Part shown: piece after piece, positions 48,279-54,265 of the stretch
How positions within the stretch are numbered: position 1 is the stretch's first letter
Layout of the letters: the number at the start of each line of letters is the position of its first letter
NCBI RefSeq assembly: GCF_000430765.1
Contig: NZ_AUMQ01000022.1
Coordinates: 124,001-188,000 of the forward strand
Length of the DNA stretch: 64,000 nucleotides
Source: Peribacillus kribbensis DSM 17871
Lineage (GTDB): Bacteria > Bacillota > Bacilli > Bacillales > DSM-1321
Direction of reading: 5' to 3'
Translations under genes and position numbers: made by a program
Notes under the pieces: model-generated
The model's database searches: none
The model's input: only the letters and a program-made list of their open reading frames with translations
Told to the model about the DNA's origin: nothing

Positions 48279-49640
48279 ATGTTAGAACCGATGGTTTGGA
48301 TAACCATTTTATCCTTTATAGGTACACTTATATTGATCCTATGGAGACCAAGGGGGCTTAACGAGGCAATACCCGCCGCTGCCGGTGCAATCATTGTCCT
48401 GCTAAGCGGGAGTGTTACGGTTTCAGATTTGGGAGTCATTGCATCAACAATCAGCGGCGCAGCCATAACGATTATGGCCACTATTGTAATGGCGAATGTT
48501 TTAGAAAGCATTGGTTTGTTTCACTGGATTGCGGAGCTGCTTGCCGCCAAAGCAAAAGGATCAGGGATACGCCTTTTTTGGTATGTCAATCTCTTGTGTT
48601 TTCTCATGACACTCTTTTTCAATAATGATGGCAGTATATTGATTACCACACCCATTTTGGTGATGCTATTAAACAATATGGGATTAAAAAACAACCAAAA
48701 AATACCCTACTTGTTGTCAGGCGGGCTGATTGCGACCGCATCCAGCGCACCGATCGGTGTCAGTAATATTGTTAATTTGATTTCATTGAACATCGTGCAT
48801 ATGACTCTTTACTTGCAGACAGCTATGATGTTTGTCCCTGCAACGCTGGGCTTACTGTTCTTAGTTGTGCTTTTATTCCTCCGCTTTCGCGGCATCCTCC
48901 CGAAAAAAATCCCGACAAGAGTTTCAGGACTCACCCTGCCGTCATACCACCCGCTTAGGGATGGACCCAGGAATGGTACAGCAAAAGATCATTCAAAGCT
49001 TATGTGGAGAATCCTTATTTTCGTGCTTGCTGTTCGTATCAGTCTCTTTGCAGCCTCTTTTCTTGCCATTCCAATCTCAATAATGGCTGTCCTTGGGTCT
49101 GTCATCCTTTTAGGATGGAGATGGTGGTATTTAAAGATTCCTCCGGGTGACATGGTGAAAAAAACACCGTGGTATATAATCATTTTTGCGTTTTGCATGT
49201 ATACCATCATATACGGATTAAAAAATATTGGTTTAGCGGATTTACTCATCGATATTATGCAGCCAATGGTTTCAGGAAGCCTGCTCCATGTAAGCATTTT
49301 GATGGGGGCAGTCATGACTGTAATGTCCAATATTTTTAATAATCACCCAGCTCTAATGATTGGAACTCTGACATTAACTCATATGAATCTTGATGTACTC
49401 TCCATGAAAATAGCGTATCTGGCCATTGTTATCGGAAGTGACATGGGATCATTGCTTCTCCCAATGGGAACCCTTGCTTCCCTCATGTGGATGCATCTTC
49501 TAAGACGCGGAAAAATAAAATTTACCTGGTGGGAATATACAAAACATACAATGGTGGTAATACCGCCTGCTGTGTTTTTCACCTTGGTCATTTTATATTA
49601 TTGGGTCTCAATTTTTTTCGGCGGGGTCCTGGAAAAATAA
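48279..49640 (+). CDS. ywrK: ArsB/ion-transporter-superfamily membrane protein YwrK
   Basis: 453 residues with about 11 hydrophobic helices. Features of the ArsB/NhaD-type fold are present: NVLESIGLFHWIAE, the NNDGSILITTPI loop near 110, and in the second half SNIFNNHPALMIGTL and GSDMGSLLLPMGTLASLMW. Related to arsenite efflux pumps, but B. subtilis YwrK lies in the same cot neighbourhood with no ars genes, so the true substrate is uncertain. GAAAGGGGAG precedes the ATG. Followed after 22 bp by ywrJ, probably one operon. Confidence 0.85.
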   Translation: MLEPMVWITILSFIGTLILILWRPRGLNEAIPAAAGAIIVLLSGSVTVSDLGVIASTISGAAITIMATIVMANVLESIGLFHWIAELLAAKAKGSGIRLFWYVNLLCFLMTLFFNNDGSILITTPILVMLLNNMGLKNNQKIPYLLSGGLIATASSAPIGVSNIVNLISLNIVHMTLYLQTAMMFVPATLGLLFLVVLLFLRFRGILPKKIPTRVSGLTLPSYHPLRDGPRNGTAKDHSKLMWRILIFVLAVRISLFAASFLAIPISIMAVLGSVILLGWRWWYLKIPPGDMVKKTPWYIIIFAFCMYTIIYGLKNIGLADLLIDIMQPMVSGSLLHVSILMGAVMTVMSNIFNNHPALMIGTLTLTHMNLDVLSMKIAYLAIVIGSDMGSLLLPMGTLASLMWMHLLRRGKIKFTWWEYTKHTMVVIPPAVFFTLVILYYWVSIFFGGVLEK

Positions 49641-49662
49641 AACCTTATGAAAAAGGAGAATA

Positions 49663-50340
49663 TTGATGTCCATAGATTTAAAGAATTTAGTAGGAAAAAA
49701 CATTGAAATTGAGATTTCTGGAGGCAGATTACAAAAGGGCATATTAATTGATGCTGGTTTGGATCTTGTCGTCCTATATAAAGGAGAAGTGAATTCGTTT
49801 CTATACATTCCCTTGATCCATGTTCAGAGATTAAAGGAAATGAACAACACAGAAGAAGCTTATTATACCCCTCCTTCAGAGCAGCCAATTGAGATGGAAA
49901 CGATCTCCTATAGAAAAATTTTAATGAACGCAAAAGGATTGTTTGTCAAAATTTATGTAACCGGAAATAAATCCATTCATGGATATTTAACCAATATCAT
50001 GAATGACTATTTTGTTTTTCACTCTCCTGCCTACAAGACTATGTTTGTTTCAATGAACCATGTAAAATACCTCATACCCTATCCACCCAATTCAACGCCC
50101 TATTCAATAGACAATCAATATTTTCCGCTTAATCCAACTGTATCCACTACACTATCCCGGTCTTTTAGTGAACAGCTGAAAAAATTCGAAAATCAATTAG
50201 TTATTCTGGATGGAGGGGATAACCCTGAAAAGATCGGCCTGCTTAAAGAGATTCATGGCAGACAGGCAATTCTGATTACAGCTGAGGGAGAAACCATCTA
50301 TAGGAATTTAGAGCACATCAAAACCATTCAATTTCCTTAA
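49663..50340 (+). CDS. ywrJ: CotB-related protein YwrJ
   Basis: 225 residues, the length I recall for B. subtilis YwrJ. It contains repeated Sm-like/DUF2642 beta units: LVGKNIEIEISGGRLQKGILIDAG (about 6-30), FVKIYVTGNKSIHGYLTNIMNDYFVFHSP (about 98-126), and QLVILDGGDNPEKIGLLKEI (about 182-202). The same units make up the N-terminal half of spore-coat protein CotB. AAAAGGAG precedes the ATG. Placed directly downstream of ywrK. A coat or spore-surface role is inferred from family and neighbourhood. Confidence 0.82.
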   Translation: MMSIDLKNLVGKNIEIEISGGRLQKGILIDAGLDLVVLYKGEVNSFLYIPLIHVQRLKEMNNTEEAYYTPPSEQPIEMETISYRKILMNAKGLFVKIYVTGNKSIHGYLTNIMNDYFVFHSPAYKTMFVSMNHVKYLIPYPPNSTPYSIDNQYFPLNPTVSTTLSRSFSEQLKKFENQLVILDGGDNPEKIGLLKEIHGRQAILITAEGETIYRNLEHIKTIQFP

Positions 50341-50890: not shown

Positions 50891-51385
50891 TCACCTTTTT
50901 TTACCTTTACCTTTATTTTGTGCTTTTTGATTTTCTTTTTCTGTTTCAGAATCCTCTTTTTTCTCTTCGGTCTTCACACCCAAGCTGATGTTCCGTACAT
51001 GGAACATTGAAATCCTGATTATTTCTTCATGCATTACTACCGTAATAAAGTCATCATTTACGTCTTCTAACACACCTTCCAGGGATTCCTTTCCACCACG
51101 GTTGATTTTTACCCATTGCCATTGGAGTGAGTTGATTGCTTTTCTAAAGGTCGGAAATGCTACGAACTCTTGTGGGGCTTCTATTTCTAATCCGAACTTA
51201 TTTTTCGAATTTTCTGTAATGCTTTTGATATGATGTGTTGTGTAAAAGATCACTCCCTCATCTTGGGTCAGAAGAGAAAAGAAGTCCTCCCCTACAGCTA
51301 GGAGTTTCCCAATCCGGGATTCTGGCCCGCCTCTGTCCACTTTCAATGTCTTACCAACAAAAGTTTGCATCATTTCAGTTTTCAT
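50891..51385 (-). CDS. cotB: Short CotB-like spore coat protein
   Basis: 164 residues. Two Sm-like/DUF2642 units: FVGKTLKVDRGGPESRIGKLLAVGEDFFSLL (about 9-40) and WVKINRGGKESLEGVLEDVNDDFITVV (about 90-117). The tail is charged, with Lys and Glu (EEKKEDSETEKEN, then NKGKGKKR). It lacks the long Ser-rich tail of B. subtilis CotB, which is the region CotH phosphorylates there. AGGAGG lies 11 bases before the ATG. It is downstream of cotH on the same strand, with a 137-bp gap. Confidence 0.82.
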   Translation of the reverse strand: MKTEMMQTFVGKTLKVDRGGPESRIGKLLAVGEDFFSLLTQDEGVIFYTTHHIKSITENSKNKFGLEIEAPQEFVAFPTFRKAINSLQWQWVKINRGGKESLEGVLEDVNDDFITVVMHEEIIRISMFHVRNISLGVKTEEKKEDSETEKENQKAQNKGKGKKR

Positions 51386-51522
51386 GCTGCATTTTTCCTC
51401 CTAATAATTAGTTTCCCTGTACTATATGTTTAAACCTAAGACAAAGTACTATAACAAACGCCCTATTTCTTGTACTGAACTGATTTAATGCGCAATAACG
51501 GCCTATTAAAAATCCTAAGGAG

Positions 51523-52596
51523 TTAAGATAAGCGAACTAACTCCCTTGATAAGTACCCCCTTCTGTCTCTGACAAAATCCAGCATAAATTGGGGTTCTGA
51601 TAAAAAAATCGGCATTTTCTCTTTTATATATGGATCTTTTTCAATCCAGGGCTGTAATTTTTCCATTTCTGAATAAATCAAGGGTTTTTGCCGGTCTTCT
51701 GTAAAATAATTCAGTAGGATATCCTCCATGATTTTCTTGTATAAGTTTCGAAATGCAGAATGATGTAGAATCCGGGCAGATAATGTATTGTAACCCTCAA
51801 TTGGAATATAATCATACGGCAGTAATTCCCCGTGCCTATTCCTTCCCCAGGTTCCATCACAATCCCAGGGAGAAATTTCAAAAAGGCCTGTCCCACTATT
51901 CCAGTAAAGGGCATAGTTATGGATAAAACCATCGAAATTTTGTGTGCAGACAACTCCCGAAAGCCATTTCAAATATTTCTCTAGATCAATCATCTTAGGT
52001 ATTTCTCGTTCAAATTCCAGATTTGTCAGTGTGTTAATCTTGAATATAAGTTCAGAAAGAAGCTGCTCCCCTTTTCCGTTACTATCATATACTTCAGAAT
52101 ATCCTTGTAAAATTTCCGTTTTCGCATCTTCTTCTTCAGTCAATAAAGAAAAATTGGCATCATTATCAGTCGCATAAAAGATTCCTCCTTCAGGAAGATT
52201 CCATTTTTTCAGAAAGAATTCATCAAATGATTCAAGCTCAAGATAAATCCCGCGGCATTGACCATTCAAAATTAATAAAACATGCTGGGCATTTGGTGTT
52301 AAGATTCCCAGGCTTCTGAAAAAATCCAGGGACAGCTTATTTCGAATTAGAGAAGGATCTTTATATTCGCTGTTTAAATGGACAACGTGGTTCCTCTCCA
52401 CAACATAAGGTTTCCTGAAGGTAATTTGATAAGATTTTTTTTTATTTTTTCGGATGGAGTCTCCCCTGTAGGCTACATCAATTAAATATCTTTTTTCGTC
52501 ATGCTTAAGTGTTCCCGGAACCGGGTCATCTCTCCAAATATCTTTATTTAAGGTTTGTAATTCTGCCGGTTGAATATACAGCTTATAACTCTTCAC
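51523..52596 (-). CDS. cotH: Spore coat morphogenetic protein kinase CotH
   Basis: Atypical protein kinase that phosphorylates serines of CotB and CotG and controls assembly of the CotH-dependent coat layer. 357 residues. Family landmarks in order: DIWRDDPVPGTL, AYRGDSIRKNKKKSY, HLNSEYKDPSLIRNKLSLDFF, ELESFDEFFL, DGFIHNYALY, and the metal/ATP site SPWDCDGTWGR, where the two Asp flanking Cys match the WDYD of B. subtilis. GTG start with GGGAG ten bases upstream. Divergent from the cotG-like gene, as in B. subtilis. Confidence 0.94.
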   Translation of the reverse strand: MKSYKLYIQPAELQTLNKDIWRDDPVPGTLKHDEKRYLIDVAYRGDSIRKNKKKSYQITFRKPYVVERNHVVHLNSEYKDPSLIRNKLSLDFFRSLGILTPNAQHVLLILNGQCRGIYLELESFDEFFLKKWNLPEGGIFYATDNDANFSLLTEEEDAKTEILQGYSEVYDSNGKGEQLLSELIFKINTLTNLEFEREIPKMIDLEKYLKWLSGVVCTQNFDGFIHNYALYWNSGTGLFEISPWDCDGTWGRNRHGELLPYDYIPIEGYNTLSARILHHSAFRNLYKKIMEDILLNYFTEDRQKPLIYSEMEKLQPWIEKDPYIKEKMPIFLSEPQFMLDFVRDRRGYLSRELVRLS

Positions 52597-52724
52597 TTTA
52601 GAAACTCTCCCTAAAAACTCTTTTTTGATTCTAAATTATGTAACCCCAGTAAAACGGTGACCCCTCAGCTAATGGATTATTTTATAAGCGGGCTTTTAAT
52701 GTCCAAGCAGCAAACCAAAATTTT

Positions 52725-52733
52725 CATACCATG
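52725..52733 (+). promoter_or_regulatory. Possible sigma-K -10 box for the cotG-like gene
   Basis: CATACCATG differs at one position from the sigma-K -10 pattern CATAnnnTA. It lies 30 bp before the ribosome site in the 167-bp gap between the divergent cotH and cotG-like genes. Confidence 0.4.
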
Positions 52734-52763
52734 AATAAAAAGTAAAAAATTTAGGAAGGGTGA

Positions 52764-53423
52764 ATGTTATTGTCAGCAACTTATGATATTGTAAAAGCAA
52801 TTTCAGATGCAGCTCATAATGGCCTTACAGGATTCATGGTTAATAATCCGGTTGATAAAGACTATAATACTCAAACAATCCAAATGAAAAATAAATCCGA
52901 AAAAAACGATAGTAAAGGGAATAAATCCGGTTGTAAAAATGGCTCTAACGGCAGTAAGTCCGGTGGCAGGAATGGGTCTAAAGGCAATAAATCCGGCCAG
53001 AAAAACAATGGTAGATGCAATAAATGCGGTAGAAAAAATGGCTCTAACGGCAATAAGTCCCACGGTAAGAATGGCTCCAAAGGCAATAAGTCTGGCCAGA
53101 AAAACAATGGTAGATGCAATAAATGCGGTAGAAAAAATGGCTCTAACGGCAATAAGTCCCACGGTAAGAATGGCTCCAAAGGCAATAAGTCTGGCCAGAA
53201 AAACAATGGTAGATGCAATAAATGCGGTAGAAGGAATGGCTCTAACGGCAATAAGTCCCATGGTAAGAATGGCTCCAAAGGGAAAGGCAATAAGTCTGGC
53301 CAGAAAAACAATGGTAGATGCAATAAATGCGGTAGAAGGAATGGCTCTAACGGCAATAAGTCCCACGGTAAGAATGGCTCTAAAGGTAATAAATCCGGCG
53401 CCGGAAAAGGAAAAAAGGGATAA
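52764..53423 (+). CDS. cotG: CotG-like repeat spore coat protein
   Basis: 219 residues, extremely rich in Lys, Asn, Gly and Ser. The N-terminus SATYDIVKAISDAAHNGLTGF is unique sequence and resembles the B. subtilis CotG head (D-I-x-x-A-V-x-x-A-x-x-x-G-L, as recalled). A partial unit near 50-72 is followed by four 33-residue repeats from about residue 74. Each repeat reads GNKSGQKNNGRCNKCGR, then xNGSNGNKSHGKNGSK; the third has an extra GK. Every full unit carries one CxxC and about four Ser next to Lys or Gly. Likely substrate of the adjacent CotH kinase. AGGAAGGG precedes the ATG. Confidence 0.85.
   Translation: MLLSATYDIVKAISDAAHNGLTGFMVNNPVDKDYNTQTIQMKNKSEKNDSKGNKSGCKNGSNGSKSGGRNGSKGNKSGQKNNGRCNKCGRKNGSNGNKSHGKNGSKGNKSGQKNNGRCNKCGRKNGSNGNKSHGKNGSKGNKSGQKNNGRCNKCGRRNGSNGNKSHGKNGSKGKGNKSGQKNNGRCNKCGRRNGSNGNKSHGKNGSKGNKSGAGKGKKG
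52983..53400 (+). repeat. 99-bp tandem repeats inside the cotG-like gene
   Basis: Units start at 52983, 53082, 53181 and 53286, with a partial fifth at 53385. Spacing is 99 bp except 105 bp after the third, where GGGAAA is inserted. Units are nearly identical in DNA. Confidence 0.92.
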
Positions 53424-53457: not shown

Positions 53458-53496
53458 TATCAAAAACGGAGCTCATAATGGAGCCCCGTTTTTGAT
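53458..53496 (+). terminator. Terminator of the cotG-like gene
   Basis: Stem ATCAAAAACGG / CCGTTTTTGAT with inner GCTC / GAGC. Confidence 0.88.
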
Positions 53497-53745: not shown

Positions 53746-53923
53746 AGGATTTTATATTAAACAGGCTCATCGTAACTCAAGGTTACTCCTCTCATCTCCA
53801 TCAATCCGGTTTTAAAGAAGAAAATTTGCGGAAACAGTAAAATACTTAAAAAAATGATTCTCAAAAACTGGAACTCTTGCATAAACTAACTATAAATCCA
53901 ATAAAAAAAGGAGTGACCCCTAA

Positions 53924-54265
53924 ATGGCATGGTTTCCTGGATACGGGGAATTTTATCAGCGCGCACTTCTTCAAATGGGCCAGAGCGATTCTGCCTCTTG
54001 GCAGAATGAAAGAGAAGATGAGGCTCCGACTCACTGGCTCATTGCACTGCAGGGATATCCAAAAGACCCCTTCTCCGATTTCTACTCCTGGGAAATCCTG
54101 ATTTACGAAGCGACCAGCCATGGCTCTTTTCATTATGAGCACCCTTTCTACAGATCAGAGGTGTACACCTGCATCCATAAAGCGTATGACATGTCCAGAG
54201 CTTTCACAGAGATGGCCCGGGATGACCGGATTGCAGGCCTTCAGCCAGAGGAACAAATCAGCTAG
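53924..54265 (+). CDS. Hypothetical 113-residue acidic protein
   Basis: Starts MAWFPGYGEFYQRALLQMGQ. It is rich in aromatic residues, with HWLIALQGYPKDPFSDFYSWEI and SHGSFHYEHPFYRSEVYTC. No signal peptide or membrane helix. GGAGTG lies eight bases before the ATG, and an intrinsic terminator follows. I do not recognise a family. The place beside coat genes makes a sporulation role possible but unproven. Confidence 0.65.
   Translation: MAWFPGYGEFYQRALLQMGQSDSASWQNEREDEAPTHWLIALQGYPKDPFSDFYSWEILIYEATSHGSFHYEHPFYRSEVYTCIHKAYDMSRAFTEMARDDRIAGLQPEEQIS

Follow-up and report, generated by a model that had tools for sequence, protein, structure and literature searches.

The cotH gene of the window (the whole stretch of 64,000 nucleotides of Peribacillus kribbensis DSM 17871 that was analyzed), its divergent repeat gene and the CotB-like gene that follows it are best explained, with a probability of about 0.7, as a CotH-CotG-CotB-type phosphorylation module of the outer spore coat, in the version of one of two kinase clades (clade A), with phosphorylation as the predicted reaction. 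This reading is based on the presence of a conserved N-terminal head on the ORF divergent from cotH in 84 of 87 cotH loci, on the occurrence of the head and coat-type CotH in the same genomes, both in the family and in the order, and on the presence of the two catalytic-type Asp residues in the kinase, together with a promoter box and the precedent of B. subtilis. Against it stand the lack of a match of the window head to the NCBIfam model NF047410, a -10 element that taken alone is at chance level, and three of the 87 cotH loci plus two of 12 further coat-CotH loci without the head. Against a substrate role of the repeat protein stand its Ser+Thr share, the lowest of 80 repeats (0.14), and the absence of a Ser-rich tail from the CotB-like protein. 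Even so, the repeat protein is probably the target of the neighboring CotH.

In the proposed mechanism, the mother cell would make CotH and the CotG-like protein late in sporulation, the head would dock the latter to its coat partners, and CotH would phosphorylate several of the 24 serines in the basic, disordered Gly/Lys/Asn/Ser tail. Phosphorylation would lower the charge of the tail, so that aggregation would be avoided and assembly could proceed, and the cysteines of the repeat might then cross-link the CotG-like protein. Tandem duplication would rewrite the repeat unit quickly, with the head, the position and the overall composition remaining tied to the kinase lineage.

Gene arrangement of the locus

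The first-pass annotation had described cotH, a divergent repeat gene and a cotB-like gene, and ORF calls and domain matches place all three genes where it had put them (Table 1). The CotG-like gene adjoins cotH in divergent orientation, the position taken here to mark a CotG-like protein; a TTG codon at 52770 is a possible alternative start.

Table 1. Features of the cotH locus, in window coordinates
Feature	Position	Strand	Description	Evidence
cotB-like gene	50891..51385	-	164 aa, downstream of cotH, same strand	
cotH	51523..52596	-	357 aa, GTG start	PF08757 E 4e-71; 5jd9 E 1.5e-113; kinase trees (clade A)
promoter box	52700..52733	+	TGTCCA-N19-CATA(CCATG)	clade A signature
cotG-like gene	52764..53423	+	219 aa, divergent from cotH	ORF call; head profile
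conserved head	52782..52847	+	22 residues, DIVKAISDAAHNGLTGFMVNNP	own profiles; NF047410 no match
tandem repeat array	52902..53399	+	99-bp period, 5.0 copies; 33-aa unit of three 11-residue sub-repeats	

Concerning the CotB-like protein, its match to DUF6897 is weak (24.1 bits for a cut-off of 23.9) and that to DUF2642 is below the cut-off. It ends in a short charged tail with one Ser in the last 28 residues, a value used for the window only, the cut that defines the tail being unreliable in clade B. The Ser/Lys/Arg-rich C-terminal region of CotB was not found in it, which is why the protein is called only CotB-like, and it does not stand out as a second substrate. All 41 clade A loci have a CotB-like gene downstream of cotH, on the same strand in 39 of them; a search seeded with the window protein gave such a gene in 10 of 45 clade B loci, which is a lower bound. 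At window positions 48279-50340, an ArsB-like permease is followed by a second CotB-like/DUF2642 protein (49663-50340); a similar-looking permease is found directly behind the cotG-like gene in Neobacillus loci, e.g., L014, L017 and L035.

The CotH kinase and its pairing with the head

The window CotH covers positions 1-322 of the 322 of PF08757 and matches the solved CotH 5jd9/5jda through residues 2-353 (E-values in Table 1). Asp222 and Asp245 are at the places of the B. subtilis-type D228 and D251, the latter presumably the second catalytic-type Asp of B. subtilis CotH. Both Asp motifs are kept in 86 of the 87 CotHs surveyed, and the D228Q mutant is called catalytically inactive in the excerpt available of PMC7821199. 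By these features, the window protein is a coat-type CotH with its catalytic-type Asp residues in place, and its kinase activity is a prediction. The nearest kinase is that of Bacillus sp. B1-b2 (L011), with 55% identity and a sister position supported at 99/86 in the careful tree described below. The window genome contains a single CotH and a single head with E<1e-3, while both are absent from the other two genomes in its genus.

The pairing of kinase and head is tight. In the family of the window, coat-type CotH is present in 28 of 43 genomes and the head (E<1e-3) in the same 28, at 282-318 bp from the kinase match; the other 15 genomes gave no head at E<1e-3, with G029 coming near (0.003). 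Among the 199 genomes of the order, 19 have the head (E≤1e-3), all of them within the 37 with coat-type CotH, a class that was assigned to these 37 by score. In the order, 18 coat-CotH genomes gave no head match, and the loci of 12 of them were read: eight have clear heads, L186 has a weak one, L187 and L190 have none, and L176 is cut by the end of its contig. It can be added that the contigs of L013, L015, L016, L018, L040, L046, L053, L056 and L079 stop within the open cotG-like frame, some hundreds of bases upstream of cotH. Assemblies thus appear to break in the repeats, and because of this the CotG-like family is probably under-recorded.

A tree of 86 CotH rows, which omits L004, is split in two with SH-aLRT 99, and a careful tree built from 67 of them, without the long rows L003 and L008 and without 17 rows closely related to retained ones, gives the same split at 100/100. 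The clade labels A and B were taken from the quick tree, on which neither head type nor Gly content depends. Clade A comprises 41 rows, including the window; 40 of their heads end in NP (mostly NNP) and that of L037 in NTP. Clade B comprises 45 rows, including the B. subtilis group, with 36 [DE]P heads, two NP heads (L003 and L048) and seven rows in which the head is of another type or absent. When the 78 NP and [DE]P rows are considered, two changes of the head label are needed on the tree. In three Neobacillus-type genomes, cotH-cotG pairs of both clades occur together and differ in their repeat chemistry (L014/L084, L016/L085 and L018/L047).

A second kind of coat CotH occurs in the family of the window, with a fused C-terminal SET domain (L008:1369-2889, SET E 1.9e-17), and frames of 528-540 aa are present in several of its genomes. 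At L003:1437-1808, a separate SET gene (E 3.3e-18) comes after cotH, beside a KGTG repeat protein. The conjunction of SET and CotH makes lysine methylation of coat repeats, beside serine phosphorylation, a possibility.

The repeat array and its composition

The tandem copies of the window repeat agree at 90% of positions, and an example of the unit is CNKCGRKNGSN GNKSHGKNGSK GNKSGQKNNGR, i.e., Gly, Lys, Asn and Ser with Cys. The array is made up of 11-residue sub-repeats, tripled to 33 residues and then amplified; two of the copies are identical at the DNA level, so some of this amplification is recent. With 24 Ser in 190 residues and a net charge of +0.25 per residue, the protein displays the central tandem repeats with Ser, and the usually positive charge, that are expected of a CotG-like protein. 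A zinc-finger reading of its CNKC motif yielded only sub-threshold Pfam matches. The sub-repeats carry NKC beside NKS, one base apart, which makes a Ser-to-Cys change with formation of disulfides likelier than a zinc finger.

The sharing of 5-mers between the window repeat and 80 others was no greater than composition predicts, as judged from shuffles; in the 12 best rows listed, the shuffle fraction went down to 0.04, which is not significant for 80 tests. The unlikeness to the SHKKS units of B. subtilis, pointed out in the first-pass annotation, thus holds, and the window unit is not recognizably related to these or to any of the 80 repeats. To speak of a re-invented substrate, as was done there, is fair for the repeat unit but not for the protein, whose head is inherited. 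The further claim, that the partnership is preserved in position and composition but not in sequence, can be kept in part. The position is conserved, as the divergent heads indicate, but so is the sequence of the head; the composition is conserved only inside a given kinase clade, where a repeat Gly share of at least 0.18 is found in 38 of 39 clade A repeats versus 2 of 41 clade B repeats, but not across loci, where Lys+Arg ranges from 0.03 to 0.50. Since the head is common, the Gly content clade-linked and the unit unlike the 80 others, it seems reasonable to interpret that the repeat unit is new, that the head is inherited, and that the composition follows the kinase clade. Among the partners of coat CotH in the order, L182, L183 and L188 bear the head and almost pure Gly-Ser repeats with hardly any charge.

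The wide range of repeat charge, together with the low Ser+Thr share of the window, would also agree with a repeat that serves chiefly as a disordered spacer, separating coat contacts and setting permeability, its phosphorylation being incidental and its sequence free to change. According to the portion available of PMC9765600, the B. subtilis repeats act as spacers and their replacement by differently charged ones is without the effect of a deletion. However, a free spacer would not explain why the repeat protein is so closely paired with a kinase that is intact, nor why repeat composition is linked to the kinase clade, and we regard it as unlikely that this is the main function of the repeat. 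Returning to the phosphorylation module, a more tentative extension, for which the odds seem to us somewhat unfavorable, is that Bacillales possess two old, parallel coat kinase-substrate systems. Their kinases would have diverged in preference, each serving its own CotG, a Gly-rich Ser/Lys one in clade A and a Gly-poor Arg/Lys-rich one in clade B, even where a single Neobacillus genome holds both, as NZ_CP133262 does (L014 of clade A and L084 of clade B). The window would then represent the clade A pair alone, with a repeat invented within the rule.

The CotG-type head

The first-pass annotation had noticed a CotG-like head, which was borne out by head profiles, although the quoted DIVKAISDAAHNGL is only part of a conserved stretch that continues to GFMVNNP. 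The 87 loci surveyed are 80 named loci, the window (L005) and six family loci, contain one duplicate pair (L004/L076) and leave out the long-type CotH loci L006, L009 and L010; the named loci being the 80 of 281 that are most similar to the window kinase, the counts lean towards its kin. Of the 84 heads, 81 were found by pattern, those of L051 and L069 by inspection and that of L001 from its DNA; none was found at L008, L036 and L089. An HMM built from all heads minus that of the window gave the divergent ORF as the best of its locus in 84 of the 87 loci (E<0.01 in 83), and no other ORF of 5458 reached E<0.01, a recovery that is circular for every locus except the window. The window head itself, absent from that profile, scored E 5e-4 among the 5458 ORFs. 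When the three B. subtilis-group loci were left out of the HMM, it recovered all three of them. A cross-test by Lys/Arg content (31/44 and 38/39) mixes both kinase clades and is no evidence for homology between them.

NF047410 (NCBIfam, CotG/ExsB N-terminal domain) is a model of the same head, with 26 positions, and recognizes 24 in a set of 36 diverse heads at E≤10, but not that of the window. The head of L066 (B. subtilis group) reaches 45.4 bits, while ten of ten other '..NP' heads, nine from clade A loci and one from L003, stay at 15.8 bits or less versus a cut-off of 28; by this strict cut-off the clade B head of L067 falls just short too (26.3 bits). Plain HMMs hardly crossed the head classes in the A to B direction (5 of 45 loci, with 1-9 in permuted controls), and with the clade B profile the window head came out on top in its locus, though with E not below 0.05. 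These results, and the miss of NF047410, would be expected if an unrelated gene had taken the place beside cotH and the likeness of the heads were due to chance or convergence. On the other hand, the B to A direction recovered 15 of 41 loci (0-3 in permuted controls), and the profile-profile comparison of A and B heads gave a probability of 96.5 and a score of 31.3, versus a maximum of 15.5 in 200 permuted controls, with z values of the window head of 7.3 to clade A and 6.9 to clade B. In addition, the place, length and promoter box of the window gene are the same as in other clade A genes, and convergence is considered very improbable. We take the A and B heads to be homologous, with the caution that they were initially chosen with a loose pattern, which favors agreement at its fixed positions.

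Promoter region

Upstream of the head, a box TGTCYA-N18-22-CATA occurs in 37 of 41 loci of clade A and in 3 of 41 of clade B, where shuffles expect 0.07 and 0.10, respectively. The upstream region of the window carries it, while that of L011, though of clade A, does not. The exact CATANNNTA, which we take to be a sigma-K-like -10 consensus, was found in 43 of 83 upstream regions, while the reverse strand gave 5 and shuffles 5.4. The -10 of the window has one mismatch to it, and one-mismatch forms are uninformative (77/83 forward, 65/83 reverse, 57.9 in shuffles), so that this element alone is no better than chance. With regard to late sporulation expression under sigma-K/GerE control, which would be expected of a CotG-like protein, the window offers the conserved box and this -10.

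Relation to known CotG-like proteins

In the excerpts available of the cited papers, CotH phosphorylates CotB and CotG, the latter in its repeat region (PMC7821199), and CotG-like proteins are reported in nearly all spore formers with CotH (PMC7821199). Bacilli with CotH are described as mostly carrying a CotG-like repeat protein that has the same chromosomal organization but is not homologous to that of B. subtilis (PMC9765600 and PMC7821199, citing Saggese 2016), with a common modular structure, central repeats and mostly positive charge (PMC9765600). That a CotG-like partner is kept by position and not by repeat sequence is, as far as these excerpts go, already in print (PMC9765600, PMC7821199), and the arrangement itself is largely known; what is new here is a kinase-linked class with a conserved head and a promoter box. 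The two kinase-linked classes were not found in print in the open-access literature searched, nor was any paper found there on the head domain, the glycine-rich class, a CotH kinase with a SET domain, or CotH/CotG in Neobacillus.

The window protein resembles B. subtilis CotG (L066 of the B. subtilis group) in that its gene is divergent from cotH, in its N-terminal head, and in basic tandem repeats at its center that contain Ser and Cys. It differs in the clade of its kinase, in the head, which ends in YQEP in B. subtilis and has 7 of 22 residues identical to that of the window, and in the Gly share of the repeat (0.24 versus 0.01 in B. subtilis). The Ser-rich phosphorylated region of B. subtilis CotB, mentioned in the excerpt of PMC7821199, is absent from the window CotB-like protein. 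Chromosomal organization, modular structure, central repeats and positive charge are shared with the CotG-like modular proteins of PMC9765600 and PMC7821199; these are described there, in the parts available, as mutually non-homologous, whereas a common head and two kinase-linked classes are found here. There is also resemblance to the clade A loci of Neobacillus, Peribacillus alkalitolerans (L076) and Bacillus sp. B1-b2 (L011), all with a clade A kinase, an NNP head, a Gly-rich repeat (with Cys also in L011) and a linked CotB-like gene, although the repeat unit of each differs from that of the window.

Altogether, the data suggest a common head, a rewritten repeat and a composition that follows the kinase lineage. 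This makes testable the general question of how a kinase keeps its substrate while the sequence of the substrate is replaced, and points to a branch of coat proteins unnamed by the present NCBI head model (NF047410).

Coding frame and flanking sequence

Frames other than the + frame are also open across the repeat array of the window, according to the ORF list. The + frame is favored as the coding frame because of the head, the ribosome-binding site, the promoter box and the third-position-biased divergence among sub-repeats, which for the eleven 11-mers is 0.16, 0.17 and 0.32 at codon positions 1, 2 and 3. That there is no gene at all, but spurious open frames in a non-coding tandem repeat, as the several further frames might suggest, can be practically dismissed in view of the in-frame conserved head, the promoter box and this bias.

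Just 3′ of the cotG-like gene, an inverted repeat (ATCAAAAACGG / CCGTTTTTGAT, window 53459-53496), found by eye and unlisted by the program, is a possible terminator. In window 53880-54265, an exact CATAAACTA is present upstream of an ORF of 113 aa (53924-54265), which gave no family match above the cut-off and is perhaps another late sporulation gene.
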